Source: Roseateles oligotrophus (GTDB lineage: Bacteria > Pseudomonadota > Gammaproteobacteria > Burkholderiales > Burkholderiaceae_C). Taken from it: a stretch of DNA of 64,000 nt. The stretch spans positions 620,001 to 684,000 of the forward strand of contig NZ_JAJIRN010000001.1 in assembly GCF_025717515.1 (NCBI RefSeq). Reading direction: 5' to 3'. Shown here in pieces: positions 8,280 to 24,551 of this stretch (its first letter is position 1; each line of letters starts with the position of its first letter). The notes beneath the pieces were generated by a model, which ran no database searches, was not told the origin of the DNA, and saw only the letters and a list, made by a program, of their open reading frames with translations. Position numbers and translations under genes: made by a program.

Positions 8280-10202
<1,923 letters not shown>

Positions 10203-11130: not shown

Positions 11131-12075
11131 TTAAAAAAGCAAGAGCAGCGCGCTCAGCAGGCCGGCTGCCAGCAAGTTGTGCAGCATGGCCAGGCTCAAG
11201 GGCAGCGAGCCTTGCAGCATGGCAAAGCCGAGCGCTGTTTGAGCCAGCAGCAGGAGCAGCAGCAAGCAGGCGCGGCGTGGCCGGCCAAGGCGCCAGGCCT
11301 GTATCGCCAGTGCCGGCAATAGCAGAGCCAAGCCCAGCGCCAGCAGGCGGTGCAGCGACTGCGCCAAGGCGCCGTTCGGGTTGACGGCCGGCCCCTGGGG
11401 CTGCAACTGCGCCAGCAAGGGTTCGCGCCAGGGGTTCAGCGCGGCCCAGTCGATCGCGCCTGCGCTTGCCAAGCATTCTCCCCAGCCGCTGCAACTCATG
11501 CCCGCATAGGAGGCGCTGACCAGACCGCCCAGTACCACTTGCAGCAGCAACAGCAGCAGGGCAGGGATCAAGCAATATCGAAAGCCGCCTGCGGATTCCA
11601 GCAGACCGGCCGCGCTCAAGCGCCCGCACAGCGCCAGCAAGCCGAAGCCGCCGAGCAGATTGCCTATCGTCACGGCCGGCACACGGGCGCCGCTGCTCCA
11701 TACCCCCAGCACCGCCAGGAACAGCGTCAGCCCCAGCAGCGCGAGCGCCGTTGGGCCATGCTGGCGCAGCGCCGGCCCGGCCCCCGCGCCGTAGCAACTC
11801 ATCACCATCATGATCACCAGTAGCAGGGCGGTCACGGCGGTGGCGCGGTGGGCCAAGCGGGCCATGGCCGTGCTGGTCTGCTCCTGGGTCGTGGGCGCCT
11901 GGCCTTGTTGTGCTTGCCGCAGGCTTTGCCCATAACACTGTGGCCAATCGGTACAGCCGAGGCCGACCTTGCTCAGGCGGATGTAGGCACTCAGGCCCGT
12001 CACGGCCAGCACCATGATCATGCACAGCAGGGCAAGGCGGCGCAGGGCTTTGAGGCGGTGATCGACTGAATTCAC
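11131..12075 (-). CDS. ctaA: Heme A synthase, COX15/CtaA family
   Basis: CtaA oxidises a methyl group of heme O to give heme A in the cytoplasmic membrane. The protein has eight predicted membrane helices and conserved histidines in LAHRATAV, LHRLLALG and LHNLLAAG, plus two Cys pairs (GCTDWPQC and CSGWGEC) typical of the family. I prefer GTG at 12075, with GGAG eight bases upstream; TTG at 12123 is in frame but has no ribosome site. It is convergent with nirE and divergent from the heme-copper block, and with ctaB at 14820 suggests that the neighbouring enzyme carries heme A or O. Confidence 0.9.
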   Translation of the reverse strand: MNSVDHRLKALRRLALLCMIMVLAVTGLSAYIRLSKVGLGCTDWPQCYGQSLRQAQQGQAPTTQEQTSTAMARLAHRATAVTALLLVIMMVMSCYGAGAGPALRQHGPTALALLGLTLFLAVLGVWSSGARVPAVTIGNLLGGFGLLALCGRLSAAGLLESAGGFRYCLIPALLLLLLQVVLGGLVSASYAGMSCSGWGECLASAGAIDWAALNPWREPLLAQLQPQGPAVNPNGALAQSLHRLLALGLALLLPALAIQAWRLGRPRRACLLLLLLLAQTALGFAMLQGSLPLSLAMLHNLLAAGLLSALLLLF

Positions 12076-12220
12076 GCTGGAGACTCCGCATAAGCAGGGG
12101 CAGGGTTTTGGGGACCTGTGCAAGGTCGCGCATCAATCAAATGGTAAGTCGGGCCACCCGCCCGCCGGCGCCCTCACAACTAGGGGTCTGCCCTGGTTTG
12201 GCGCATAACCGTGCAATTCC

Positions 12221-12234
12221 TTGAACTGGTTCAA
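12221..12234. promoter_or_regulatory. FNR/Dnr-type box upstream of the heme-copper block
   Basis: TTGAACTGGTTCAA is a near-perfect palindrome with the TTGA-N6-TCAA core, 73 bases before the first plus-strand gene at 12307 and about 145 bases from ctaA on the other strand. Its sequence closely resembles the box at 10162-10175, so the same anaerobic or NO-responsive regulator may control nirS and this block. No binding data exist here. Confidence 0.65.
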
Positions 12235-12306: not shown

Positions 12307-12462
12307 ATGAAGAATACCGATGCGGAACAAGAAGCCGTTCCGATGATGCAGCAGTTGCTCGACAACCCTTTCTTGCTGCTCTTTCTCGGCGTGCTGGTGC
12401 CGATGCTGGTCTACACCTTGTGGGGTGTGATCGACATCCTGACGGTGCCCTTGGCCAAATAA
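12307..12462 (+). CDS. One-helix small subunit of the heme-copper enzyme
   Basis: A 51-residue protein with a polar N-terminus and one membrane helix (FLLLFLGVLVPMLVYTLWGV) followed by IDILTVPLAK. The ATG has GAGGAA six bases upstream. It lies directly before the CuA subunit gene and after the Dnr-type box. Small single-helix subunits of this kind (subunit IIa of ba3 oxidase) often sit before subunit II in B-family heme-copper operons. I infer the same role from size, topology and place, not from a diagnostic motif. Confidence 0.72.
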   Translation: MKNTDAEQEAVPMMQQLLDNPFLLLFLGVLVPMLVYTLWGVIDILTVPLAK

Positions 12463-12553
12463 GGACTGGCCCGGCCAGGCCGCCGACCAGGGGTCGACGC
12501 GGCCACCCCATCCCGGCGGTGCGCCGCCTTGTTGTTGCTCCGAGGATCCATCC

Positions 12554-13093
12554 ATGAGCGCCATACTCCCTCCCGCAGAACGACTTTGGTGGAAGCATCC
12601 GCTTGACCGGGTCGAAGGCACCTGGATCGTCATCGCCTTCGTCTGGTGCATGGTGATGTTTGTGATGATGGTCGGCTGGCATGTCTACGGCAAACAGAAT
12701 CTGTCGACCGAGACCTACCGCACCACGCCCGAGATGTTCTCGGCTAAGACGCAGGCGATGGTCGATAAATACACGGTGCGTACCGAGACCGACGAGAAGA
12801 TTCCCGTCGTCCATCCGCCCGAAGGCAGCGATGTCTACCTGATCGCGCGGCTCTGGAGTTGGTGGCCCATCATCGAGCTGGAGAAGGACAAGACCTACCG
12901 CTTGCACCTGACCTCGATGGACTACAACCACGGCTTCTCGCTGCAGCCCACCAATATCAATATCCAGGTGGTGCCGGGCTATGAGCATGTGGTGAAGGTC
13001 ACGCCGAACCAGTCGGGGCAGTTCTCCGTGGTGTGCAACGAATATTGCGGCATCAACCATCACACGATGGTTGGTCGCATCTACGTCAAGTGA
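12554..13093 (+). CDS. CuA-containing subunit II of a heme-copper NO reductase/oxidase (NorS/CoxB-like)
   Basis: A 179-residue protein with one N-terminal membrane helix (about 24-45) and a periplasmic cupredoxin domain. A complete CuA site is visible: His126 in DYNHGF and Cys161, Glu163, Cys165, His169, Met172 in CNEYCGINHHTM. It should accept electrons from a cytochrome c, for example NirM. It is shorter than A-family subunit II (about 250) and has one helix, as in B-family enzymes and in the NorS subunit of the norSY-senC clusters of ammonia oxidisers. GAGGA precedes the ATG; 11 bases separate it from subunit I. Confidence 0.9.
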   Translation: MSAILPPAERLWWKHPLDRVEGTWIVIAFVWCMVMFVMMVGWHVYGKQNLSTETYRTTPEMFSAKTQAMVDKYTVRTETDEKIPVVHPPEGSDVYLIARLWSWWPIIELEKDKTYRLHLTSMDYNHGFSLQPTNINIQVVPGYEHVVKVTPNQSGQFSVVCNEYCGINHHTMVGRIYVK

Positions 13094-13103
13094 GGAGGGC
13101 GCC

Positions 13104-14804
13104 ATGTCCAGCAATGTGACCTACCGGACCTGCCCACGCTCGGGCTTGCAGTTCGAGGGCCAGGCCGAAAAGCTGATGATTGCCAACGCCGTGGTGGCGG
13201 TGGTGTTCTTGCTGATCGGCGGCATCTTGGCCCTTGGCGTCGTCTTGACGCGCTGGCCGGCCGTGCATTGGCTGGCCGCCGATACGTTTTACCAAGTGCT
13301 GACCGCGCATGGCATCGACATGCTGATCTTCTGGATCATCTTCTTCGAGGTGGCGGTGCTGTACTTCTGTTCATCGACGCTCTTGCGCTGTCGAATCGCG
13401 ACGCCCAAGGTCGCCTGGTTGGCCTTTGCACTGATGCTGGTGGGCGCCATCACCAACAATATCGCCGTGCTGCAGGGCGGCTCCAGCGTCATGATGACGA
13501 GTTATGTGCCGATGATGGCGGCGCCGCATTTCTACCTCGGCCTGATCCTGTTCGCCGTCGGCGCGCTGATCGCCTGCTTCATTTTCTTCGGCACCCTGGT
13601 GATCGCCAAGCGTGACAAAACCTATCAAGGCTCGGTGCCCTTGGTCACCTTCGGCGCCATCACGGCGGCCATCATCGCGGTGTTCACGATTGCCTCCGGC
13701 GCCATCATCCTGATCCCGACCTTTTTGCTCTCGGTCGGCATCGTCAAGGCGGTGGATCCGCTGGTCTATCGGACGATCTGGTGGGCTTTTGGTCACAGCT
13801 CGCAGCAAATCAATGTGGCCGCGCATATCTCGATCTGGTACGCGGTGGCGGCGATTGCCTTCGGCGCCAAGCCGATGAGCGAGCGGGTTAGCCGCGGTGC
13901 CTTCTTGCTCTACATCCTGTTCCTGCAACTGGCCAGTGCGCACCACCTGCTTGCCGACCCCGGCGTCAGCACCGCCTGGAAGGTCGTCAACACCAGCTAC
14001 TTCATGTATTTTGCGGTGTTGGCCTCGATGATCCACGGCCTCACCATTCCCGGCGCGATCGAGGTGGCGCAGCGGCAGAAGGGCTACACCAACGGCCTGT
14101 TCGAGTGGTTGCGCAAGGCGCCTTGGGGCAACCCGGTGTTCTCGGGCATGTTCATTTCGCTGATCGGCTTCGGCTTCCTGGGCGGCATCTCGGGCGTGAT
14201 GATGGGCACCGAGCAGCTCAATATGATCATCCACAACACCATCTACGTACCCGGTCACTTCCACGCCACCGTGGTGGTCGGCACGACGTTGTCCTTCATG
14301 GCGCTGACCTATTTCCTGATCCCGGTGCTGTTCCGGCGCGAGATGATCAATCCGGGGCTGGCCAAGCTGCAGCCCTATCTGTTCGGCTTCTCGATGTACT
14401 TCTTCTGCCTGGTGATGATGGGGGCCGGCACGCTGGGCGTCTCGCGGCGCCACTGGGACATGGCCTTCAACGGCGCGGCGCTGGCCTATGAATGGCCGGG
14501 TGCGGCCTATCTGATGATGGGTCTGGTCGGCATCGCCGGCGTGGCGGCGATGGTCGGCGGCGCGCTCTATATCTACATCACCGTGGGTTCGCTGCTGTGG
14601 GGCAAAAAGCTCGACAGCGGTGCGGTCAGCGCCAAGTTCACGCCCATCCCGCCCACACCGGTCGGCGTGGCGGTGCAGAACTACGGCTCGGCCGGGTTCG
14701 CCGCACCGGGTACCTTTGTGCTGGCGATGGTCTTCCTGACCGCCTTCGTGCTGTATTACTTCATCAACTGGAAGTATCTGTCCCAGGTCTGGGGTCTCAG
14801 CTGA
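13104..14804 (+). CDS. Heme-copper catalytic subunit I lacking the active-site Tyr; probable sNOR-type NO reductase (NorY-like)
   Basis: A 566-residue protein with about 12-14 membrane helices. Heme ligands are His69 (VLTAHGIDM) and His385/His387 (PGHFHATV). CuB ligands are His231 and His280-His281 (SAHHLLADPG, a B-family signature as in ba3). Oxygen reductases have HPxVY after the first CuB His; here it is HSSQQ (231-235), so the cross-linked tyrosine is replaced by Gln235. Loss of this Tyr marks the nitric oxide reductase branches of the superfamily. With the CuA subunit, heme O synthase and SenC neighbour it best fits sNOR (norSY-senC). A diverged oxygen reductase is less likely. ATG at 13104 follows GGAGG. 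Confidence 0.85.
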   Translation: MSSNVTYRTCPRSGLQFEGQAEKLMIANAVVAVVFLLIGGILALGVVLTRWPAVHWLAADTFYQVLTAHGIDMLIFWIIFFEVAVLYFCSSTLLRCRIATPKVAWLAFALMLVGAITNNIAVLQGGSSVMMTSYVPMMAAPHFYLGLILFAVGALIACFIFFGTLVIAKRDKTYQGSVPLVTFGAITAAIIAVFTIASGAIILIPTFLLSVGIVKAVDPLVYRTIWWAFGHSSQQINVAAHISIWYAVAAIAFGAKPMSERVSRGAFLLYILFLQLASAHHLLADPGVSTAWKVVNTSYFMYFAVLASMIHGLTIPGAIEVAQRQKGYTNGLFEWLRKAPWGNPVFSGMFISLIGFGFLGGISGVMMGTEQLNMIIHNTIYVPGHFHATVVVGTTLSFMALTYFLIPVLFRREMINPGLAKLQPYLFGFSMYFFCLVMMGAGTLGVSRRHWDMAFNGAALAYEWPGAAYLMMGLVGIAGVAAMVGGALYIYITVGSLLWGKKLDSGAVSAKFTPIPPTPVGVAVQNYGSAGFAAPGTFVLAMVFLTAFVLYYFINWKYLSQVWGLS

Positions 14805-14819
14805 ACAAGGCGATGCGCG

Positions 14820-15716
14820 ATGGACACCACCCTAGCCCCCGCCGCCGCGTCACTGCAACGTGTTCGTGAAGTATTGAGCCTGTTCAAGCTGCGCATCGGC
14901 GGCTTCATCTCGATCACCGCCCTGGTCGGTTTTGCGGTGAGCGGCAAGGGGCAAGACTTGACCCTCATTCAAGTCACGGTGCTGGCGTTGTCGGTCTTGC
15001 TGGCCTCGGCCAGCGCCGGCGCATTCAATCAATACGCCGAAGCAGAAGGCGACCGCCTGATGGCGCGCACCCGCAAGCGGCCCTTCGCCACCGGCGCCAT
15101 TCCGCGCCGGCCGGCCTGGTTGCTGTTGATGGCGCTGATGCTGGCGCTGGCGGTCGGCTCGGCCGCCTGGGTCTTGAACGCGATGGTGGCGTTCTATATT
15201 TTTCTGGGTGCCTTCTTCTACGGCGTGGTCTACACGCTGTGGCTGAAGCGACGCAGCTGGCTCAATATCGTCGTCGGCGGCCTGTCCGGCAGTTTCGCGG
15301 CGCTGGCCGGTGCGGCTGCGGTGGACCCTGGCGTCGGGGTGCATGGCTGGCTGCTGGCGCTGGCGCTGTTCTTGTGGACGCCGCCGCATTTCTGGAGTCT
15401 GGCGATTGCCGGCGCGGCCGATTACACGGCGGCCGGCGTGCCGATGTTGCCGGTGGTGGTCGGCAATGCGCGGGCCGCCCGCATCGTCTATGCCAGCGCG
15501 GTGGCGCTGGGCTTGGCCGCCTTGCTGCCGATGTTCTTTGGCGCCGGCTGGATCTATCTGCTTGGTGCCCTGGGCGGCGGCGGCTACTTTGTGCTGAAGG
15601 CCAGGGCGCTGGCGCTGGCCCCAAGCCGGGCGACGGCGATGGCCTCATTTTTCGCTTCTTTGCTGCAACTCGGTGCGCTGCTCGCGGCGGCGAGTATTGA
15701 TGGTTTGCTCCGTTAG
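14820..15716 (+). CDS. ctaB: Protoheme IX farnesyltransferase (heme O synthase)
   Basis: CtaB/CyoE adds a farnesyl chain to heme b. The 298-residue membrane protein shows the UbiA-family Asp motif NQYAEAEGDRLMARTRKRP, a second motif around YTLWLKRRSWLNIVVGG, and WTPPHFWSLAI. About seven to nine helices are predicted. It lies 15 bases after subunit I and overlaps the SCO gene by 17 bases, so it appears dedicated to this enzyme. Classical NorB contains only heme b, so a linked ctaB argues for a different heme-copper class. Confidence 0.94.
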   Translation: MDTTLAPAAASLQRVREVLSLFKLRIGGFISITALVGFAVSGKGQDLTLIQVTVLALSVLLASASAGAFNQYAEAEGDRLMARTRKRPFATGAIPRRPAWLLLMALMLALAVGSAAWVLNAMVAFYIFLGAFFYGVVYTLWLKRRSWLNIVVGGLSGSFAALAGAAAVDPGVGVHGWLLALALFLWTPPHFWSLAIAGAADYTAAGVPMLPVVVGNARAARIVYASAVALGLAALLPMFFGAGWIYLLGALGGGGYFVLKARALALAPSRATAMASFFASLLQLGALLAAASIDGLLR

Positions 15717-16509
15717 ACGCTTTCTTTGCTTCTTGTCGCTGGCGACCTTGTTGCTGCCGGCCCGGGCCCAAACGCCTGTTCTCGATGGATGGGCGGCGCT
15801 GCAGGCCAGCCAGGCGGTGCTTGGCAAGACATTGGGCGAGCATGCGCTGCTGGACCGCGAGGGCCGGCCGCTGCGCCTGTCCAGCCTGCGCGGCAAGCCG
15901 CTGCTGGTCAGCTTCATCTACACCGGCTGTTTCCAGGTTTGCCCCGCCAACTCCCGCTCGCTGCTGCAGGCGGTGCAGGCGCTGGAGGCTCGCTTTGGTC
16001 TTGATGGCTTCAATGTGATCAGCATCGGCTTCAACCAGCCGGCCGACTCACCGCAGGCGATGAAGGCTTTTGCGCTGCAGCATGGCATCGATAGGCCGCA
16101 GTGGAATTTTCTGAGCGCGCCGGCCGCCTCGGTTGACGCGCTGACGCGCGACTTCGGCTTCAGCTACGCGGCCACGCCGGCCGGTTTCGACCATGTGCTG
16201 CAGGTGACGCTGGTCGACGCACAAGGCCGCATCGCACGCCAGGTCTATGGCGACGAAGTGCCGGCCGATGCACTCGGTGAGCCGCTCAAGCAATTGCTGC
16301 TCGGCGCGCCGCTGCCGCAGCAGTCCGGGCTTGATGATCTGATCAACCGGGTGCGCATTCTGTGCACAGTCTACGACCCCAAGACCGGCCGCTACCGGGT
16401 CGACTACAGCCTGGCCATCGAAGTTGCCGGCGGCCTGAGCTTTGTGCTGGCGATTCTTTTGTACTTCTTCAATGAATGGCGCGGCCAGCGCCGCCGATCG
16501 CGGGTCTGA
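15700..16509 (+). CDS. SCO1/SenC copper chaperone with C-terminal membrane anchor
   Basis: SCO proteins deliver copper to, or reduce, the CuA site of subunit II. This 269-residue protein has a signal sequence, a thioredoxin fold with the copper motif CFQVC in YTGCFQVCP, and the distal His in GFDHVLQVTL. Unlike most SCO proteins (about 200 residues) it ends with an extra segment and a transmembrane helix (LSFVLAILLYFFNEW). The ATG at 15700 lies inside the end of ctaB. In norSY clusters a senC gene occupies the same place. Confidence 0.9.
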   Translation: MVCSVRRFLCFLSLATLLLPARAQTPVLDGWAALQASQAVLGKTLGEHALLDREGRPLRLSSLRGKPLLVSFIYTGCFQVCPANSRSLLQAVQALEARFGLDGFNVISIGFNQPADSPQAMKAFALQHGIDRPQWNFLSAPAASVDALTRDFGFSYAATPAGFDHVLQVTLVDAQGRIARQVYGDEVPADALGEPLKQLLLGAPLPQQSGLDDLINRVRILCTVYDPKTGRYRVDYSLAIEVAGGLSFVLAILLYFFNEWRGQRRRSRV

Positions 16510-18102
16510 ATGGCTGCTCACGCTATTCATGCGGCCGGACCCTTGCGCAAGCGGCTGCTGCCGGCTTGGCAGCGCCTGGAGCGTGGCTTTGACCAAGTCT
16601 TCGGGGCTAACGCCAACCCCTTGCGGCAGCTCGGCGGCCTGGGTTTTTTGTTTTTTGCCTGGCTCTTGCTGAGCGGCATCTATCTCTTCGCCATGCTGGA
16701 CAGCTCGGCCACCGCGGCCTACGCGTCGATCGCGCGCCTGGAGCGCTTGCCCTGGTCTGCGGGCGGCTGGTTGCGCGGGGTCCATCGTTACGCGGCGGAC
16801 GCCTTTGTGCTGGTGATGCTCTTGCATCTGCTGCGCGAATGGCTGCTCGGCCGCTACCAGGGCTTTCGGCGTTATTCCTGGCTGACCGGCGTGCCGCTGC
16901 TGCTGTTCGTGTTCATCAGCGGCGTCGTTGGTTTCTGGCTCAACTGGGACCGCCTCGGCCAGTATTCGGCCGTCGCCACGGCCGAGTGGCTGGACGCCTT
17001 GCCGATCTTCGCCACGCCCTTGGCGCGCAACTTCCTCAATGTGGCGGCGGTCGGTGACCGGCTGTTCTCGCTCTTCATCTTCATTCATTTGGGCCTGCCG
17101 CTGCTGCTCTTGTTCGGGCTCTGGTTCCACATCCAGCGCCTGACGCTGGCGGCGGTGTTGCCGCCGCGCGGTCTGGCCTTGCGGGCCAGCCTGGGGCTGC
17201 TGATGCTGGCGGGCATGGCGCCGGTGCGCAGCCAGGGGCAGGCCGATCTGACGCAGCTGGGCGGCGCCTTGAATTTCGACTGGTTCCTGCTCTTTTTGCA
17301 CCCGCTCACCGATGCCATCGGCGCCGCGCCGGTCTGGGCCTTGTTGCTCGGCGTCATGCTGAGCTTGTTCGCCTTGCCCTTTTTGGCGGGCCGCGGCGGC
17401 CCCTTGCCGGCGCGCCACACGGCCGAGGTCGACCCGGCCAACTGCAATGGTTGCCGGCGCTGCGTGGTCGACTGCCCCTATGCCGCGGTGACGATGGTGC
17501 CGCACCCCGATTGGCAGACGCCGGGCCGGCCGATCCGGCAACTCGCGCAGGTCGACGCCGATCTGTGCGCGAGTTGCGGCATCTGCGTCGGCGCCTGCCC
17601 CTCGGCCACGCCGTTTCGCAGCGGCGTCGATTTGCTGACCGGCATCGACATGCCGCAGCAACCGCTGGACGGTCTGCGCCGCCGGCTGGAGGCGGGCCTG
17701 GCCGCCTTGGCCGGCCCGCATAAATTCGTCGTTATCGGCTGCGAGCGCGGCCCGCGGGGCGAGCATGAAGCTGCCGCCGATGTGCTGACGCTCAATTTGA
17801 TTTGCACCGGCATGTTGCCTCCGTCCTTCATCGAATATGCCTTGCGCGGCGGGGCGGCCGGCGTGGTCATCAGCGGCTGCCTTGAGGGCGATTGCGCGTT
17901 CCGCTTCGGCCAGCGCTGGACCGAACAGCGCCTGAGCGGGCAGCGTGAACCCAGGCTGCGCGCCAGCGTGCCGCGCGAACAGGTCTTGCTGGCTTGGCCC
18001 AGCCCGGCGCAGCCGCGCGCGGTGTCGGCGGCCTTGCAGCGCCTGCGCAGCGCGGCCGCCGGTCGGCCCGCCGCCGGCACTTTTGAGGAGTCGCCCGCAT
18101 GA
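16510..18102 (+). CDS. Fusion: di-heme cytochrome b + 2[4Fe-4S] ferredoxin + MvhD-like domain
   Basis: A 530-residue redox fusion. Residues about 30-215 are a cytochrome b/b6-like unit with four helical histidines (HRYAAD, MLLHLLRE, IFIHLGLP, LWFHIQR; the last pair 14 residues apart) for two hemes b. After more helices, residues about 310-370 hold two 4Fe-4S motifs, CNGCRRCVVDCP and CASCGICVGACP. Residues about 395-490 resemble MvhD, the Fe-S subunit that links hydrogenase to heterodisulfide reductase, with CERG, ICTGMLPPSFIEYA and SGCLEGDC. It should connect soluble low-potential Fe-S chemistry with membrane hemes b. Its ATG abuts the SCO stop codon. I know no named protein with this exact role. 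Confidence 0.85.
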   Translation: MAAHAIHAAGPLRKRLLPAWQRLERGFDQVFGANANPLRQLGGLGFLFFAWLLLSGIYLFAMLDSSATAAYASIARLERLPWSAGGWLRGVHRYAADAFVLVMLLHLLREWLLGRYQGFRRYSWLTGVPLLLFVFISGVVGFWLNWDRLGQYSAVATAEWLDALPIFATPLARNFLNVAAVGDRLFSLFIFIHLGLPLLLLFGLWFHIQRLTLAAVLPPRGLALRASLGLLMLAGMAPVRSQGQADLTQLGGALNFDWFLLFLHPLTDAIGAAPVWALLLGVMLSLFALPFLAGRGGPLPARHTAEVDPANCNGCRRCVVDCPYAAVTMVPHPDWQTPGRPIRQLAQVDADLCASCGICVGACPSATPFRSGVDLLTGIDMPQQPLDGLRRRLEAGLAALAGPHKFVVIGCERGPRGEHEAAADVLTLNLICTGMLPPSFIEYALRGGAAGVVISGCLEGDCAFRFGQRWTEQRLSGQREPRLRASVPREQVLLAWPSPAQPRAVSAALQRLRSAAAGRPAAGTFEESPA

Positions 18103-18629
18103 TCACCCGCCCGAGCTCGAAGCAGGCGCTGAACTGGGCTGGCCAGGCGCTGCTGTATGGCTTGTTCGCCTTGCTGATCGGTTTGTTCTCTCGCTGGCCG
18201 CCTTATCGGCATTTGGCGGCGGACCAGTCCTTGATCAAACTCAGCTTCTCGCACCATGGCCAGCCGGTCGCGCCCTGCAGGCTTTTGAGCGCCGCCGAGC
18301 TGGCCAAGCTGCCGCCGAATATGCGCACACCCAAGGTCTGCCCGCGCGAGCGCGTGCCGGTGACGGTGGAACTGGAACTCGACGGCAAGACGGTGCTGCG
18401 CCATATCGCCCCGCCGGCGGGCCTGTCCAAGGACGGCGCCTCCTCGGCCTATCACCGCATTCAGGTGGCGGCCGGCGAGCATCTGCTCAAGGTGCGCTTG
18501 AAGGACAGCCCGGCTGGCCCCGGAAAAACCGACTTCGACTATCAGCGCGAAGCGCGCGTGACGCTGGCGCCCGGCCGCATTCTGGTGATTGACTTCGACG
18601 TCGAGAAGGGCGGCATTGTGCTGCAATGA
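18099..18629 (+). CDS. Membrane-anchored protein of unknown function in the heme-copper block
   Basis: A 176-residue protein with one N-terminal membrane helix (LLYGLFALLIGLFSRWP) and a likely periplasmic beta-rich domain with two Cys (PCRLL and KVCPRE). It overlaps the genes on both sides by four bases (ATGA), with GAGGAG upstream, so it is co-translated with them. Its constant place between two redox proteins suggests an assembly or accessory subunit. I do not recognise a characterised family; a relation to the short orf of norSY-senC clusters is possible. Confidence 0.8.
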   Translation: MITRPSSKQALNWAGQALLYGLFALLIGLFSRWPPYRHLAADQSLIKLSFSHHGQPVAPCRLLSAAELAKLPPNMRTPKVCPRERVPVTVELELDGKTVLRHIAPPAGLSKDGASSAYHRIQVAAGEHLLKVRLKDSPAGPGKTDFDYQREARVTLAPGRILVIDFDVEKGGIVLQ

Positions 18630-20065
18630 ATAGGGTCTCCGATGCCTTCGCTCCGCCTGCCGTCGGCAACTCAGCGCCCGCACCCGCTCTGGCGTCCAGT
18701 TATCTATTGACGCTGCCGCAGGGCGCCCAGCTGGCCTTGGCGCGTGGCTGGTTGTGGCTGGGCCTGCTGGCCTTGCTGGGCTCGGGGCTGTTCTCGGTCT
18801 TGCTGGTGTTGTCGCGCACGCCGGGGCTGAATCAATGGTTCCCGGTCAGCGACTTCTTTCGCGTCGCCTTGGTCGTGCATGTGGATCTGTCGGTGCTGGT
18901 CTGGTTCGTGGCGCTGGCCGGCCTGCTGTGGAGCTTGAACGGCTCGGCGCGCGGCCTCGCCTGGGGCTGGGCCGCGCAAGCGCTGTGTGGCGCGGGCACC
19001 TTGTTGATGGCGCTGGCACCGTTTTTGTCGCGGGCCGAGCCCATCATGGCCAACTACATTCCGGTCCTTGATGGGCCCTTGTTTTTGGCCGGCCTCTTGC
19101 TGTTTGGCGCCGGGGCGGTGCTGCTGGTCTTGCGCAGCCTGTTGACCGCGCCCAAGCTGGGCGCGGGTTTCGGCGGCGAGGGCGCCCTGCGATTCGGGCT
19201 GAACGCAGCGGCGATCGCGTCGGCAGTGGCGCTCGGCGCTTTCGCGGCCTCTTGGGCCGGCGTACCGCTGGGCTTGAGCGGCAAGGCCTATTACGAGATT
19301 TTGTTCTGGGGCGGCGGCCATGCCTTGCAGTTCAGCTGGACGCTGTTGATGTTGGTCGCCTGGTTGTGGCTGGCCAGCGCCTGTGGCGCCGAGTTGCGCC
19401 TGAGCCCAAGGATTGCGGTGCTGCTGTTGGCGCTGGCGCTGCTGGCGGTCTTCATCACGCCCTATGCCTATCTGGCCCATCCGATTGCCTCGGTCGAACA
19501 TCGGAATTTATTGACCTGGGCGATGCGGCTGGGCGGCGCCTTGGGGCTGGCACCGATCGGGCTGGCGGTGGGGCATGGGCTCTGCAGCAAGCCCATGCGC
19601 GCCGGCAGCCCGGTCACTGCCCCGCTGCGCGCTGCCTTGCTAAGCTCCTTGCTCTTGTTCGCGGCCGGTGGCCTGATTGGCCTTTTTATCTCGGGCAGCA
19701 ATGTGCGCATTCCCGCCCATTACCACGGCTGCATCGTTGGCGTAACGCTGGCCTTGATGGGGCTGGTTTATCTGCTTCTGCCGCGCTTGGGCTACGGCAC
19801 CGCGCAGGGCCGGATGGCGCACTGGCAACCCTGGACCTATGGGCTGGGGCAGCTGATGCACATCATCGGCCTGGTTTGGTCGGGGGGCTACGGCGTGCAG
19901 CGCAAGGTGGCGGGGGCCGAGCAGGTGCTGCGCAGCCCGGGCGAGGTCGGCGGCATGGCCCTGATGGGCTTGGGCGGCGCGGTCGCGATCGTCGGCGGCT
20001 TCTTGTTTGTCGTCGTGGTGATTCAGGCCTTGCGTCAGCAGGCCGCAGCGGGGCCGCTGCCATGA
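18626..20065 (+). CDS. Second, highly divergent heme-copper subunit I with altered CuB site
   Basis: A 479-residue membrane protein with about 12 helices that keeps the heme-copper framework: His85 (VVHVDLSVLVWF, low-spin heme), His365/His367 (PAHYHGCIVG, high- and low-spin hemes) and His232 (GGGHALQF) as first CuB ligand. Two features differ from oxygen reductases. The HPxVY motif is HALQF, so the Tyr is lost; and the HH pair is His285-Pro286 (YLAHPIASVEHR), so one CuB histidine is lost, with His292 nearby. It has no CuA partner of its own and is flanked by cytochrome b fusions, so its electrons may come from those. NO reduction, NO sensing or another metal site are all possible. Confidence 0.75.
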   Translation: MNRVSDAFAPPAVGNSAPAPALASSYLLTLPQGAQLALARGWLWLGLLALLGSGLFSVLLVLSRTPGLNQWFPVSDFFRVALVVHVDLSVLVWFVALAGLLWSLNGSARGLAWGWAAQALCGAGTLLMALAPFLSRAEPIMANYIPVLDGPLFLAGLLLFGAGAVLLVLRSLLTAPKLGAGFGGEGALRFGLNAAAIASAVALGAFAASWAGVPLGLSGKAYYEILFWGGGHALQFSWTLLMLVAWLWLASACGAELRLSPRIAVLLLALALLAVFITPYAYLAHPIASVEHRNLLTWAMRLGGALGLAPIGLAVGHGLCSKPMRAGSPVTAPLRAALLSSLLLFAAGGLIGLFISGSNVRIPAHYHGCIVGVTLALMGLVYLLLPRLGYGTAQGRMAHWQPWTYGLGQLMHIIGLVWSGGYGVQRKVAGAEQVLRSPGEVGGMALMGLGGAVAIVGGFLFVVVVIQALRQQAAAGPLP

Positions 20066-21975
20066 TTCAGCGTCTGCAAGCGCTGCTACAAGCCTGCTTC
20101 ATGCGGGTCGAGGCCTTGTTCAACCGGGCCTTTGGAGACCGCCTCAATCCGCTCTATCACCTGGGTTCGATCGGCTTCTTGCTGTTCTGGATCGTCGCCG
20201 GCAGCGGGCTTTATCTTTACGCTTTCTTCGAGACCGGCGTGGCCGGCGCCCATGCCTCGGTTGAGGCCTTGACGCATGGCCAATGGTGGGCCGGCGGCAT
20301 CCTGCGCAGCCTGCACCGCTATGCCTCGGACGCCTTGGTGCTGGTGATGTGCTTGCATATGCTGCGAAATTTCGCCTTCGATCGCCTGCGCGGCTTCCGC
20401 TGGTTCTCCTGGGTCTCGGGCGTCGCGCTGATCTGGCTGGTCTATCTGTCCGGCATCAATGGTTATATATTGCCCTGGGACCGGCTGGCGCAGTTCGTCG
20501 TCGTCGCGGTGTTCGAATGGCTCGACGCCTTGCCCGGTTTTGGCGGCGCCCTGATGCGCAACTTCATCTACGCCAGCAGCGTCAATGACCGTTTGTTTTC
20601 GCTGTTAGCCTTCATGCATATCGGCGTGCCCTTGCTGCTTTTGCTGCTGCTGTTCGTGCACATTCAGCGGGTCCCCAAGGCCAAGACCCTGCCGCCGCGC
20701 AGCATTGCGGCCAGCCTGGGGCTGACGCTCTTGGCCTTGTCGCTGTGGCAGCCGGTGCTCAGCCAGGGCGGCGCGGCCGATCTGAGTCTGGCGGCGGGCA
20801 GCTTGGCGCTGGACTGGTTCTATCTGGCCATGCTGCCCTTGTTTTACAGCTGGCCCTTGAAGTTGGTCTGGGCCTTGGCCGTGGCGGGCAGCCTGCTGTT
20901 GCTGCTATTGCCCTGGTTGCCAATGAAGCGGCGCGGCAGTAAGCCGGCCGCACACCAGATCTTGCTGCATCCGGCTGAGCAGCGGCTGACGGTGCAGGGC
21001 GGCGAGACGATTCTCGAGGCCGGGCTGCGCGCCGGGCTGGCCTTGCCTTTCGAGTGCCGCAATGGTGCTTGTGGTGTTTGTGTCTGCACGGTGCTGCAGG
21101 GCCGCGTCGAGCAGGGGCCGTATCAACCGCAGGTGCTGAGCGAGGCGATGCGTGCCAAGGGTCAGGTCTTGATGTGTTGTGCCAAGCCGCTGGGTGATCT
21201 GGAGATAGAGCTGGACGCGGCGGCAGATTCAGCGGCGGCTCTCCGTCCTCAAATCCAGCGGGCGCGCGTCGAACGGCTGGAGCATCTGTCGGCGGATCTG
21301 GTGCGCCTGCGCTTGGGCTTGCTGGACCAGGCGACGATAGCCTTCAAGGGCGGCCAGTACATCAACATCTTGTTGGCCGATGGCCAGCGCCGCGCCTTCT
21401 CCTTCGCCAACGCGCCGCAGCATAACGATCACATCGAACTGCATGTGCGGCGTATTCCGGGTGGGCGTTTCACCGGTCAGGTGTTCACGCAAATGCAGGT
21501 CGGCGATGAACTGCGCTTCGAGGGCCCACTGGGCGACTTCAGCCTGCGCGAGGGCGAGTTGCCGTTTCTGTTCGTCGCCGGAGCGACCGGCTTTGCGCCG
21601 ATCAAAAGCATCGTCGAAGATGCCTTTGCGCGCGGCCTGACGCGGCCGATGTGGCTGTACTGGGGCGTGCGCCGGCAGGCCGATCTCTATGCGCTGGACT
21701 TGGCGCGGCAGTGGCAAGCCGAGCGGCCTAACTTTCATTTCGTGCCGGTCTTGTCCGAGCCGGATGCGGCCATTCCCTGGTCGGGCCGCACCGGCCTGGT
21801 CCATCAGGCGATGCTGGATGACTTTCCGGATCTGCGGGGCTTCGAGGTCTATCTCTGCGGTTCGGTCAAGATGGTCGATGTGGCCGCGCCGGCCTTCATC
21901 GAGCGGGGCTTGAGCGAGGGCCTGTGCTTTACCGATGCCTTCAGGCCGGCCCTGCGTGCAAACTCCGGCCCCTGA
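20062..21975 (+). CDS. Fusion: di-heme cytochrome b + 2Fe-2S ferredoxin + FAD/NAD(P)H reductase
   Basis: A 637-residue fusion. Residues about 25-215 form a cytochrome b/b6-like unit with histidines in LHRYASD, CLHMLRN, FMHIGVP and FVHIQRV and the b6-like ILPWDRLAQ loop. Residues about 300-390 are a plant-type 2Fe-2S ferredoxin (CRNGACGVC, then a distal Cys in LMCCAK). Residues about 400-630 are a ferredoxin-NADP reductase module: RAFSFAN for FAD, GGRFTGQVF, VAGATGFAPI for the nucleotide, and LYLCGSVKM near the end. It should carry electrons from NAD(P)H through FAD and 2Fe-2S to membrane hemes b, presumably for the heme-copper protein encoded just upstream, which it overlaps by four bases. 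Confidence 0.88.
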   Translation: MIQRLQALLQACFMRVEALFNRAFGDRLNPLYHLGSIGFLLFWIVAGSGLYLYAFFETGVAGAHASVEALTHGQWWAGGILRSLHRYASDALVLVMCLHMLRNFAFDRLRGFRWFSWVSGVALIWLVYLSGINGYILPWDRLAQFVVVAVFEWLDALPGFGGALMRNFIYASSVNDRLFSLLAFMHIGVPLLLLLLLFVHIQRVPKAKTLPPRSIAASLGLTLLALSLWQPVLSQGGAADLSLAAGSLALDWFYLAMLPLFYSWPLKLVWALAVAGSLLLLLLPWLPMKRRGSKPAAHQILLHPAEQRLTVQGGETILEAGLRAGLALPFECRNGACGVCVCTVLQGRVEQGPYQPQVLSEAMRAKGQVLMCCAKPLGDLEIELDAAADSAAALRPQIQRARVERLEHLSADLVRLRLGLLDQATIAFKGGQYINILLADGQRRAFSFANAPQHNDHIELHVRRIPGGRFTGQVFTQMQVGDELRFEGPLGDFSLREGELPFLFVAGATGFAPIKSIVEDAFARGLTRPMWLYWGVRRQADLYALDLARQWQAERPNFHFVPVLSEPDAAIPWSGRTGLVHQAMLDDFPDLRGFEVYLCGSVKMVDVAAPAFIERGLSEGLCFTDAFRPALRANSGP

Positions 21976-22076: not shown

Positions 22077-23126
22077 ATGTCGAATTCATATGCACGCAAG
22101 CCCCATCTGGTGTGCCCGGCCGGCTCACTGCGCGCGCTGCAGCTGGCCGTCAATGCCGGCGCCGATGCGGTCTATATGGGCTTGAAGGATGCGACCAATG
22201 CGCGCAACTTCGCCGGCCTGAATTTTGACTTGGAGCAGGCGCAAGAGGGCGTCGCGCACGCGCATGCCAAGGGCGCGCAGGTGCTGATGGCGCTGAACAC
22301 CTTTGCCCGTGCCGATGAGCCCGAGCGCTGGTACCGGGCCGTCGACACCGCCGCTGAAATGGGCGCCGATGCCTTGATCTGCGCCGACACGGCGGTGATG
22401 GCCTATGCCTGCCGCGCGCATCCGCAGATGCGTTTGCACCTCAGCGTGCAGGCCTCGGCCACCAGCTACGAGGCGATCGAGTTCTACCGCGAGCACTACG
22501 GCATTCAGCGGGCGGTGTTGCCGCGCGTGTTGATGCTCTCTCATATTGGCCATGTGCTGCGCAATAGCAAGGTGGAAATCGAGGTGTTCGGCTTCGGCAG
22601 CCTGTGCGTGATGGTGGAGGGGCGCTGTGCCTTGTCGTCCTATGTGACCGGGCAATCACCGAACAATGCCGGCGTTTGCTCGCCGCCTTCCGCCGTGCGC
22701 TGGATCGACAAGGCCGATGGTGTGCAGGCGCGCCTCGGTGAGGTGTTGATCGATCAATTCGGCCCCGCTGAGCCGCGCGGTTATCCGACCCTGTGCAAGG
22801 GTCGCTTCAGCGTCGGCGGCCGGCGCGACTATGCGCTGGAAGATCCGTCAAGCCTCAACAGCATGGCCTTGCTGCCGGAGCTGATGGCGATGGGCATCGC
22901 GGCGATCAAGATCGAGGGGCGGCAGCGCAGCGCCGCCTATGTCGAGCAGGTCACCGGCGTCTGGCGTCAGGCCATCGATGCCTGCTATCTAGCGGGGCCG
23001 GCGGGCAGTACCGGTATTGACGGGGGCTCACGTTTCAGCGTGCAGCCGGCTTGGGCCGCCACGCTGGCCGAACATGCCGAGGGCCAGCAGGTCACGCTCG
23101 GCGCCTATAGCCGCCCATGGCGTTGA
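22077..23126 (+). CDS. ubiU: UbiU, O2-independent ubiquinone hydroxylation protein
   Basis: UbiU and UbiV form a heterodimer of U32-family proteins that hydroxylates ubiquinone precursors without oxygen. The 349-residue protein begins LVCPAGSLRALQLAVNAGAD and has the four 4Fe-4S cysteines at 177, 184, 201 and 240, exactly eight residues beyond the positions reported for the E. coli protein (169, 176, 193, 232). It starts 101 bases after the cytochrome b/reductase fusion on the same strand and may belong to the same transcript. Confidence 0.94.
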   Translation: MSNSYARKPHLVCPAGSLRALQLAVNAGADAVYMGLKDATNARNFAGLNFDLEQAQEGVAHAHAKGAQVLMALNTFARADEPERWYRAVDTAAEMGADALICADTAVMAYACRAHPQMRLHLSVQASATSYEAIEFYREHYGIQRAVLPRVLMLSHIGHVLRNSKVEIEVFGFGSLCVMVEGRCALSSYVTGQSPNNAGVCSPPSAVRWIDKADGVQARLGEVLIDQFGPAEPRGYPTLCKGRFSVGGRRDYALEDPSSLNSMALLPELMAMGIAAIKIEGRQRSAAYVEQVTGVWRQAIDACYLAGPAGSTGIDGGSRFSVQPAWAATLAEHAEGQQVTLGAYSRPWR

Positions 23127-23143
23127 ATGGATTGAATACAGTG

Positions 23144-24067
23144 ATGCAAACAGAACGTATCAAACTGAGCGTAGGCCCCTTGCTCTATCTGTGGCCACGC
23201 AACACGGTCACGCAGTTCTATGCCGATCTGGCCGACGGCCCGGCCGACACCGTGGTGCTGGGCGAGGTGGTGTGCGCGCGCCGACGCGAGCTGAAGCTGG
23301 ACGATTGGCTGGGTCTGGCGCGCGAGCTGAGTCAGGCCGGCAAGGAGGTGGTGTTGGCGGCGCAGGCGCTGATCGAGTCGGAGTCCGATCTGCGCTTGCT
23401 GCGCCGTCAAGCCGAGCAGCATGAGTTTCTGCTCGAGGCCGGCGACGCCTCGGCGCTGCGCCTGCTGCAGGGCAAGCCCTTTGTGCTGGGGCCGCACATC
23501 AATATCTACAGCCGCCCGGCGCTGGAGCAGCATGCCTTGCTGGGCGCGCTGCGCTGGGTGCCGCCGCTGGAGCTGGACCTGGCGGCGCTGGCTCGCATCA
23601 ACCCGGCGGAGGCGCCGGTTCGCAATCCGATGGGCGAGGCGCTTGAGACCGAGCTGTTCGCCTTTGGCCGCATGCCGCTGGCATTTTCGGCGCGCTGCTT
23701 CACCGCCCGCCACCATCATCTGAGCAAGGACGAATGCCAGTTCCGCTGCCTGGATGACCCCGACGGCCTGCTGGTGCGCTCGACCGAGGGGCAGGACTTT
23801 CTGGTGCTGAACGGCATCCAGACCCAGTCCGCGGGCCTGCATTGCGTGCTGGCACAGGCACAGCAGCTGCGCGCTGCCGGCCTGCGGCGCCTGCGCCTAT
23901 CGCCTTGTTCAAGCGGCTTTACCGAGGTGGTAACGCAGTACGAGCAGGTGTTCAACCAGGGCCTGGCCGGCGAGGCGGGTCTGCAATCACTGCGCGAGTT
24001 GCCGCTGCCGGGCGCCCTGGTCAATGGCTATGCGCTGAAGCAGGCCGGTATGGCCTGGCAGGATTGA
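23144..24067 (+). CDS. ubiV: UbiV, O2-independent ubiquinone hydroxylation protein
   Basis: Partner of UbiU. The 307-residue protein starts with KLSVGPLLYLWPR as in other UbiV proteins, and its cluster cysteines are at 44, 185, 198 and 202, the E. coli spacing (39, 180, 193, 197) shifted by five. I chose ATG at 23144 because it fits the family N-terminus; an in-frame ATG at 23117 overlaps ubiU and would add nine residues. Confidence 0.94.
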   Translation: MQTERIKLSVGPLLYLWPRNTVTQFYADLADGPADTVVLGEVVCARRRELKLDDWLGLARELSQAGKEVVLAAQALIESESDLRLLRRQAEQHEFLLEAGDASALRLLQGKPFVLGPHINIYSRPALEQHALLGALRWVPPLELDLAALARINPAEAPVRNPMGEALETELFAFGRMPLAFSARCFTARHHHLSKDECQFRCLDDPDGLLVRSTEGQDFLVLNGIQTQSAGLHCVLAQAQQLRAAGLRRLRLSPCSSGFTEVVTQYEQVFNQGLAGEAGLQSLRELPLPGALVNGYALKQAGMAWQD

Positions 24068-24080
24068 AAAAAGAGGCAAC

Positions 24081-24551
24081 ATGATGACGACAGCCCATAC
24101 TCAGCAAGGCCGGGGCCAGCAGTCCGGCTTTAGCTTGCCGCCTTTGCCCGGACCTCTGCGCGGCTTGGTCAGGCGTCTGCCCTGGCAGCCGCCCAGCCTG
24201 CTGCTGGCGCTGAGCTTGCAGCGGCTGATGTGGCCGAAGCTGCGCGAATCGCAGCGCCGCGAGCTGGCCGGGGCGGTTGTCGCCATCGAGGTCGAAGACC
24301 TCGGCCTGCAATGCCGCGTCTGGTTGGTCGAAGGCAAGGGCTTTGCGGTGGCGCCGGCGGGCCAAACGCCGCGTGTGCGGGTACGGGCCAGCAGCAGCGG
24401 CTATCTGCGTTTGCTGAAAGGCCAGGAGGACCCCGACCGCCTGTTCTTCGAGCGTGCGCTGGTGCTGGAGGGTGACACCGAATATGGGCTGCTCTTGAAG
24501 AACACGCTTGACGCCTTGGGGCCGATTCTTCAATGGCCAAGAGCTGGTTGA
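24081..24551 (+). CDS. ubiT: UbiT, SCP2-domain accessory protein for anaerobic ubiquinone synthesis
   Basis: A 156-residue protein with a sterol-carrier (SCP2) lipid-binding domain (RVRVRASSSGYLRLLKG...DTEYGLLLKNTLD). UbiT is the lipid-binding partner of UbiU/UbiV. The gene follows ubiV by 13 bases with AAGAGG ahead of the ATG. Gene order ubiU-ubiV-ubiT supports the name. Confidence 0.9.
   Translation: MMTTAHTQQGRGQQSGFSLPPLPGPLRGLVRRLPWQPPSLLLALSLQRLMWPKLRESQRRELAGAVVAIEVEDLGLQCRVWLVEGKGFAVAPAGQTPRVRVRASSSGYLRLLKGQEDPDRLFFERALVLEGDTEYGLLLKNTLDALGPILQWPRAG

Follow-up and report, generated by a model that had tools for sequence, protein, structure and literature searches.

A nine-gene block beside nirS in Roseateles oligotrophus: a candidate B-family nitric oxide reductase with a possible maturation apparatus of its own

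The block and its surroundings

A block of nine tightly packed genes, all on the + strand, lies at positions 12307-21975 of a 64,000-nucleotide stretch of the Roseateles oligotrophus genome (assembly GCF_025717515.1, contig NZ_JAJIRN010000001.1, positions 620,001 to 684,000), and this whole stretch is referred to below as the window. A preliminary description made from the letters of the window had reported nine genes joined by short spacers or four-base overlaps, had called the first half an sNOR-type nitric oxide (NO) reductase and had seen soluble-donor-driven redox modules in the second half. All nine frames were confirmed from the reading frames and their translations. We propose, tentatively and from sequence, that the block codes for a B-family NO reductase and for an apparatus of its own that matures it; that the first half is an NO reductase is probable, and this part is held more firmly than the part on maturation.

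The first gene (12307..12462) encodes a 51-aa single-helix protein, known from its translation and its conservation in related loci, which we take to resemble the small subunit of ba3-type enzymes; the domain scan covered the other eight proteins. After a spacer of 91 bp comes the CuA subunit II (12554..13093; PF00116, COX2), after 10 bp subunit I no. 1, the B-family NO reductase candidate (13104..14804; COX1, 216 bits), and after 15 bp ctaB, the heme o synthase of the UbiA family (14820..15716; TIGR01473, 246 bits with a cut-off of 210). The ctaB gene overlaps that for SCO/SenC (15700..16509; PF02630), whose start is uncertain, the frame opening at 15673, and this is followed at 0 bp by a fusion of Cytochrome_B, two [4Fe-4S] motifs and a FlpD/MvhD domain (16510..18102; domain scan and alignment), here called the FlpD-type fusion. 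The last three junctions are exact 4-base overlaps (18099-18102, 18626-18629 and 20062-20065) and bring in a 176-aa protein of a helix and a beta-sandwich (18099..18629; no Pfam match with the window copy), a second 'subunit I' that is a heme-copper-fold protein (18626..20065; weak COX1 match, 46 bits with a cut-off of 34.8), and a fusion of Cytochrome_B, a [2Fe-2S] Fer2 domain and a flavin adenine dinucleotide (FAD)/NAD(P)H reductase (20062..21975; Pfam and NCBIfam domains, alignment), here called the NAD-type fusion. Gene fusions joining block genes to each other were not seen in the locus set.

The block is flanked by a nir cluster that includes nirS on one side and by ubiUVT on the other. 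Upstream on the opposite strand is the d1-type nitrite reductase (8298-9491; PF02239, E 9.9e-149), and the same cluster has nirJ (TIGR04051) and, by reading of translations, more nir-type genes. Divergent from the block is ctaA, the heme A synthase gene (11131..12123, - strand; PF02628, 113.6 bits), whose product has two Cys pairs and, read from its translation, is type 1B by the scheme in the available part of PMC12808453. The host genome has two ctaA genes, this one and another inside the aa3 cluster on contig C34, and five COX1-family genes, namely, an aa3 type (C34), a cbb3 type (contig C52), NorB (contig C12) and the two in the block, the identities of the first three being read from motifs in their translations.

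Subunit I no. 1 and the NO reductase role

Subunit I no. 1 keeps six metal-ligand histidines (His69, His231, His280, His281, His385 and His387) and reads GHSSQQ where oxidases read GHPIVY, Gln235 at His+4 replacing the active-site Tyr. This Gln is found at 95% or more in 32 aligned rows, a count in which four TPR-fused copies of the second subunit were left out, and in the same rows Cys161, Cys165, His126, His169 and His170 of the CuA subunit and the Cys-x3-Cys and His of SCO are conserved. The loss of the active-site Tyr given in the preliminary description is therefore confirmed, and as the second 'subunit I' likewise is without it, the helix VI Tyr that marks B-family O2 reductases is absent from both heme-copper-fold proteins of the block. 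The NorB-type HxxxE on helix VI is also absent from GHSSQQ. The best solved relatives are 7deg (E 9.3e-48) and Thermus ba3 chains. In a 40-row tree the group with Gln (15 rows, 100/98) is separate from the B-family group with Tyr (11 rows, 98/97), all 11 rows of which carry this residue, and the grouping with oxygen reductases that would have spoken for an oxidase was not seen. The motif HxxQQxN is kept in plasmid relatives from Defluviimonas (one), Thermus (two) and Thermomicrobium (one). As a side observation, the Thermus relatives (L199:6983-8668 and L202:6983-8665) read HFK for HFH, the low-spin heme His being apparently replaced by Lys, and one of them adjoins an annotated nirS, in line with an NO reductase role.

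In the part of PMC8756737 available to us, Table A4 gives Gln at the Tyr position as the mark of eNOR and Asn as that of sNOR, and the available part of PMC10734462 reports eNOR in Gallionellaceae with nirK or nirS. The block resembles eNOR, as these two partial sources present it, in its B-family subunit I with Gln at the Tyr position, in the CuA subunit II just upstream, and in that eNOR is reported in Betaproteobacteria and beside nir genes; it differs in the cytochrome b fusions, the 176-aa protein and the second heme-copper-fold protein, which were not found in the accessible text of the eNOR reports searched. The sNOR of ammonia oxidisers (norSY-senC-orf1; PMC4940428, available in part) is similar in that a single operon holds its CuA subunit, subunit I and SCO genes, whereas the residue listed for sNOR is Asn and that of the block at His+4 is Gln; in addition, the block has ctaB between subunit I and SCO and its second half is extra. 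The block subunit I does have an Asn at His+6, and the comparison with the residue in the published sNOR table takes that residue to be the one at His+4. A NorY reference sequence was sought in 18 genomes and none was found, the searches giving only A-type oxidases or nothing. With respect to Thermus ba3 oxidase, the likeness is in the fold, its chains being the best-matching solved structures for both heme-copper-fold proteins of the block, and in the gene order of small subunit, II and I; the differences are that Tyr is replaced in both block proteins and that the second has no CuB His pair. The published eNOR mark fits subunit I no. 1 better than the sNOR mark does, and we regard the protein as a candidate eNOR-like NO reductase by its Gln, the class name being provisional.

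Co-occurrence was examined in 399 genomes of the order, with subunit I no. 1 called at E<=1e-60 and the d1 family at E<=1e-100 with PF02239, which also catches NirF and NirN. The d1 family was present in 31 of the 35 genomes that have subunit I no. 1 and in 70 of the 364 that do not (p 1.4e-16). Among the resulting 101 d1-family genomes, cNOR or qNOR (E<=1e-20; eNOR, gNOR and bNOR elsewhere in these genomes are outside this count) turned up in 11 of the 31 that have the block and in 67 of the 70 that lack it (p 1.5e-10), leaving 20 of 31 as compared with 3 of 70 with no match. In such counts missing pieces of genomes can mimic absence and related genomes are not independent; in genomes that are at least 95% complete the figures are 9/21 with the block and 59/61 without (p 2.5e-7), and counted by genus they are 9/23 and 33/34 (p 1.3e-6). 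Of 88 distinct upstream regions, 38 have the FNR/DNR-type palindrome TTGA-N6-TCAA no more than 300 bp ahead of the first gene, compared with 134 of 7179 windows from the same loci. The window has one at 12221..12234, before the first block gene, and one at 10162, about 107 bp before the nirS start used. Two further palindromes of this kind are at 1052 and, inside ctaB, at 14874. Taken together, co-occurrence with NirS, the scarcity of cNOR and qNOR in the genomes with the block, the palindrome and the tree support the NO reductase role assigned earlier to the first half, while the name sNOR fits less well, the residue at His+4 being Gln and not Asn.

The second half of the block

The second subunit is predicted to have a heme-copper fold (AlphaFold2; predicted local distance difference test (pLDDT) 85.1, predicted template modeling score (pTM) 0.87), with a ba3 chain as best match (E 9.2e-8). 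Two 30-row alignments have His85, His232, Gln235, His365 and His367 in every row. The His ligands of the low-spin and high-spin hemes (His85, His365 and His367) are thus kept, but of the three His that CuB requires block members keep His232 alone. The His-His pair of helix VII is absent: in the MAFFT alignment, read with L241 and L243 not included, block members have Ala or Ile in the first of the two columns and Tyr282 in the second, the host protein having Ala281-Tyr282, and some TPR-fused and other-class members have a single His in the second column. The HMMER alignment shifts these columns by a few residues relative to MAFFT and likewise has no His-His pair. Glu224 is conserved, and Tyr282 in block members stands near the CuB place. 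Accordingly, the second 'subunit I' is not the ordinary heme-copper subunit that the preliminary description had listed, and a second standard reductase is ruled out by the missing CuB ligands. The tree makes the Gln group its sister (100/97) and gives it a long branch (2.6), so that descent from an NO reductase is likely but not secure. A Pfam and NCBIfam search with its alignment gave nothing informative.

Each cytochrome b part of the two fusions has two conserved His pairs (32-row alignment), and therefore two hemes b are expected in each. The 176-aa protein has one helix followed by a beta-sandwich, with Cys60 and Cys81 invariant (A3 alignment; model pLDDT 91.0); a fold search with this model gave no match at E<=0.001, and its alignment found nothing in Pfam and NCBIfam.

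In the order set the core second subunit was found in 33 genomes, all of which also carry subunit I no. 1. Matches had been obtained in 37 genomes, and four were excluded, namely, G137 as a fragment, G179 as TPR type, and G347 and G420 as cross-matches to subunit I no. 1; the contig of G347 stops within the block, and the last block gene of G420 is a cytochrome b shorter than the fusion. In the host genus the second subunit occurs in 1 of 18 genomes examined, that of the host, and thus the block is patchy. A pattern scan of named genomes confirmed at least 555 relatives of the second subunit, of which the best 80 were retained, and the 50 retained loci of at least 20 kb, all brought in by this protein, were counted. 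Carriers of the block among the named genomes include Comamonas granuli, Simplicispira lacusdiani and Quisquiliibacterium transsilvanicum. The small helix protein, the CuA subunit, subunit I no. 1 and SCO are in 49/50 of these loci, the 176-aa protein in 50/50, each cytochrome b fusion in 47/50 and ctaB in 42/50, a strong conservation that exceeds chance. Both fusions are present in 44 loci, the NAD-type alone in 3, the FlpD-type alone in 3, and neither in 0; since each can be missing and both are never absent together, they look like alternative inputs to one system. A fixed order of modules is ruled out because the pair of NAD-type fusion and 176-aa protein and the pair of FlpD-type fusion and 176-aa protein swap places among loci. 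A plasmid search with the second subunit gave no match. A Defluviimonas plasmid (L198:8187-14933) has a shorter block that runs from the small helix protein to the 176-aa protein, with a hemerythrin gene after it.

Relatives of the second subunit also occur outside the block. In a phylum-wide sample the profile matched (E<=1e-30) in 57 of 299 genomes, which are the host's own and 56 outside its class, and from 73 places outside the host genome 20 other-class loci were picked by hand, longer contigs being favoured, so that they are not a random sample. In these, ctaA lies within 307 bp in 9/20, A-type coxA is in the locus in 6/20, an NO reductase subunit in 1/20, and FlpD-type fusions with the 176-aa protein in 1/20. 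Among 113 block loci, which come from two overlapping sets with some places counted twice, 80 have ctaA somewhere in the locus, and in 20 it is no more than 500 bp from the second-subunit gene. The common theme of these contexts appears to be the building of heme proteins.

Several individual loci can be described. A betaproteobacterial locus (L128:420-10043) has an A-type oxidase cluster, whose oxidase bears Tyr, with a FlpD-type fusion and the heme-copper-fold protein lying between its ctaB and ctaA genes and no NO reductase subunit at the locus. Cytochrome b561 genes and CuA-domain matches near the heme-copper-fold gene and ctaA at L227, L229 and L235 echo the cytochrome b and CuA parts of the block; Pfam was run on the CuA-domain matches at L234 and L244 only. 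An ABC-2 transporter (ATPase and permease) adjoins the heme-copper-fold gene at L230:6703-9827 and L242:7028-10069. Four divergent paralogs (L074-L077) share a C-terminal extension, which is TPR by Pfam in L077, the sole one scanned. The neighbourhoods of this branch that were scanned have CcmF, two further Cytochrom_C_asm proteins and a multiheme cytochrome (L077), an ABC ATPase and CcmE (L074), and a Cytochrom_C_asm protein beside NrfD and Fe-S proteins (L076).

Proposed mechanism and rival readings

In the mechanism that we propose, a periplasmic cytochrome c would reduce CuA, and subunit I no. 1 would reduce the NO made by NirS to N2O. In the second half, NAD(P)H would reduce a two-heme cytochrome b through FAD and [2Fe-2S], and a ferredoxin or FlpD partner would do so by another route through [4Fe-4S]. 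The electrons would then pass to the heme-copper-fold protein and from there to CtaA, SCO or the nascent reductase. The cytochrome b, the Cys-pair protein and the heme-copper-fold protein may thus provide electrons for the conversion of heme o to heme a, or for reduction of metals or thiols, during assembly, and the heme-copper-fold protein would be a maturation or electron-transfer partner and not a second terminal reductase. This redox-driven maturation of the reductase, which perhaps serves heme A synthesis, is the less firm half of the proposal. The NO reductase core is of a known kind and the second half appears new: in the literature searched, whose coverage is partial, neither the block nor any heme-copper homologue lacking the CuB His pair was found described. 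NosR, which activates N2O reductase, is comparable in kind, being a flavin and Fe-S membrane redox protein devoted to one denitrification enzyme.

In a narrower form of this proposal, which we consider doubtful, heme A synthase has as its redox partner the heme-copper-fold protein, whose CuB site is not a normal one. That protein would work with the cytochrome b fusions in the block and with cytochrome b561 and a CuA protein elsewhere. The electrons of the heme o to heme a conversion might then be supplied or removed when O2 is scarce, and a heme-A-type NO reductase could be built during denitrification. As given in the available parts of the sources, yeast heme A synthase receives electrons from NADH through the ferredoxin reductase Arh1 and the ferredoxin Yah1 (PMC7140478), and heme A synthase requires O2, yet the formyl oxygen derives from water (PMC12808453). 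The yeast supply is like the block in using NAD(P)H, flavin and [2Fe-2S], with a heme A synthase gene near the block; it differs in that the block carriers are fused to a two-heme cytochrome b and that the link to ctaA is by gene position alone.

A number of observations weigh against the proposal that the block is an NO reductase with its own maturation apparatus. The host genome outside the window has norC (L083:4702-5160), norB (HLWVEG, contig C12) and norQ- and norD-type genes, which rules out the block as the organism's sole NO reductase gene set; the earlier statement that norCB is lacking thus holds for the window and fails for the genome, norCBQD being on another contig. Of the 35 genomes that carry subunit I no. 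1, 12 have a cNOR or qNOR match of some kind and 4 have no d1-family match. A related enzyme has been argued, in the available part of PMC6967387, to be a high-affinity O2 reductase or terminal oxidase from its expression at low O2. One 21-kb locus (L160:6224-11332) has both fusions, the 176-aa protein and the heme-copper-fold protein and no NO reductase genes. Conversely, the Defluviimonas plasmid has the reductase, ctaB, SCO, the FlpD-type fusion and the 176-aa protein but neither the heme-copper-fold protein nor the NAD-type fusion, and hence the fusions do not need that protein. In the other-class loci there is no ctaA within 500 bp in 11/20 and none of the neighbours sought in 6/20, and these six loci make the maturation reading less firm. 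Finally, ctaA, ctaB and SCO are ordinary near any heme-A enzyme and are therefore weak evidence for the second half.

The reading closest to the preliminary description is that the second half carries electrons from NAD(P)H and ferredoxin into the NO reductase, the heme-copper-fold protein acting as a diheme relay. It agrees with the presence of subunit I no. 1 in all 33 order genomes that have the core second subunit, and with fusions whose donors differ while their membrane parts are alike and either of which may be absent but never both, as alternative inputs predict. However, the conserved CuA ligands point, from what is known of the family, to a periplasmic donor, and outside the block the heme-copper-fold protein lies beside ctaA or A-type oxidase genes and has this reductase in 1/20 loci. 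The redox modules described earlier are thus there by their domains, but the wider gene contexts speak more for maturation than for direct electron entry, which we judge to be rather unlikely though the most serious of the alternatives. It is improbable that the first half is a high-affinity O2 reductase whose link to NirS reflects only life at low O2. The argument made in PMC6967387, as far as its available part goes, the oxidases among B-family relatives and the cNOR of the host would fit such an enzyme, but Gln stands in place of the active-site Tyr throughout the group read, and cNOR and qNOR are missing from most NirS-family genomes with the block and from few without it. About equally improbable, and perhaps a little more so, is that the heme-copper-fold protein acts by itself as a heme-only enzyme or sensor, binding or turning over NO or O2 with electrons from the cytochrome b fusions. 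Both sets of heme-site ligands are kept, His232, Gln235, Glu224 and the Tyr282 of block members are near the CuB place, and a CuA-domain protein is near some other-class members; on the other hand, block members retain at most one of the three CuB His, and several of the neighbours outside the block are biogenesis genes.

If the NO reductase role is correct, a genome survey restricted to cNOR and qNOR would list many NirS-type denitrifiers as being without an NO reductase, as in 20 of the 31 d1-family genomes with the block, and the block would alter who counts as an N2O producer. The second half introduces a widespread heme-copper branch without the usual copper ligands whose neighbours are often biogenesis genes, and if it does serve heme A synthesis, the making of heme A at little or no O2 becomes directly testable.

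Directly downstream of the block are ubiU, ubiV and ubiT (22077-24551), the genes for anaerobic ubiquinone synthesis, each of which scores above its NCBIfam cut-off, and ubiU was also found in 10 of 120 related loci.

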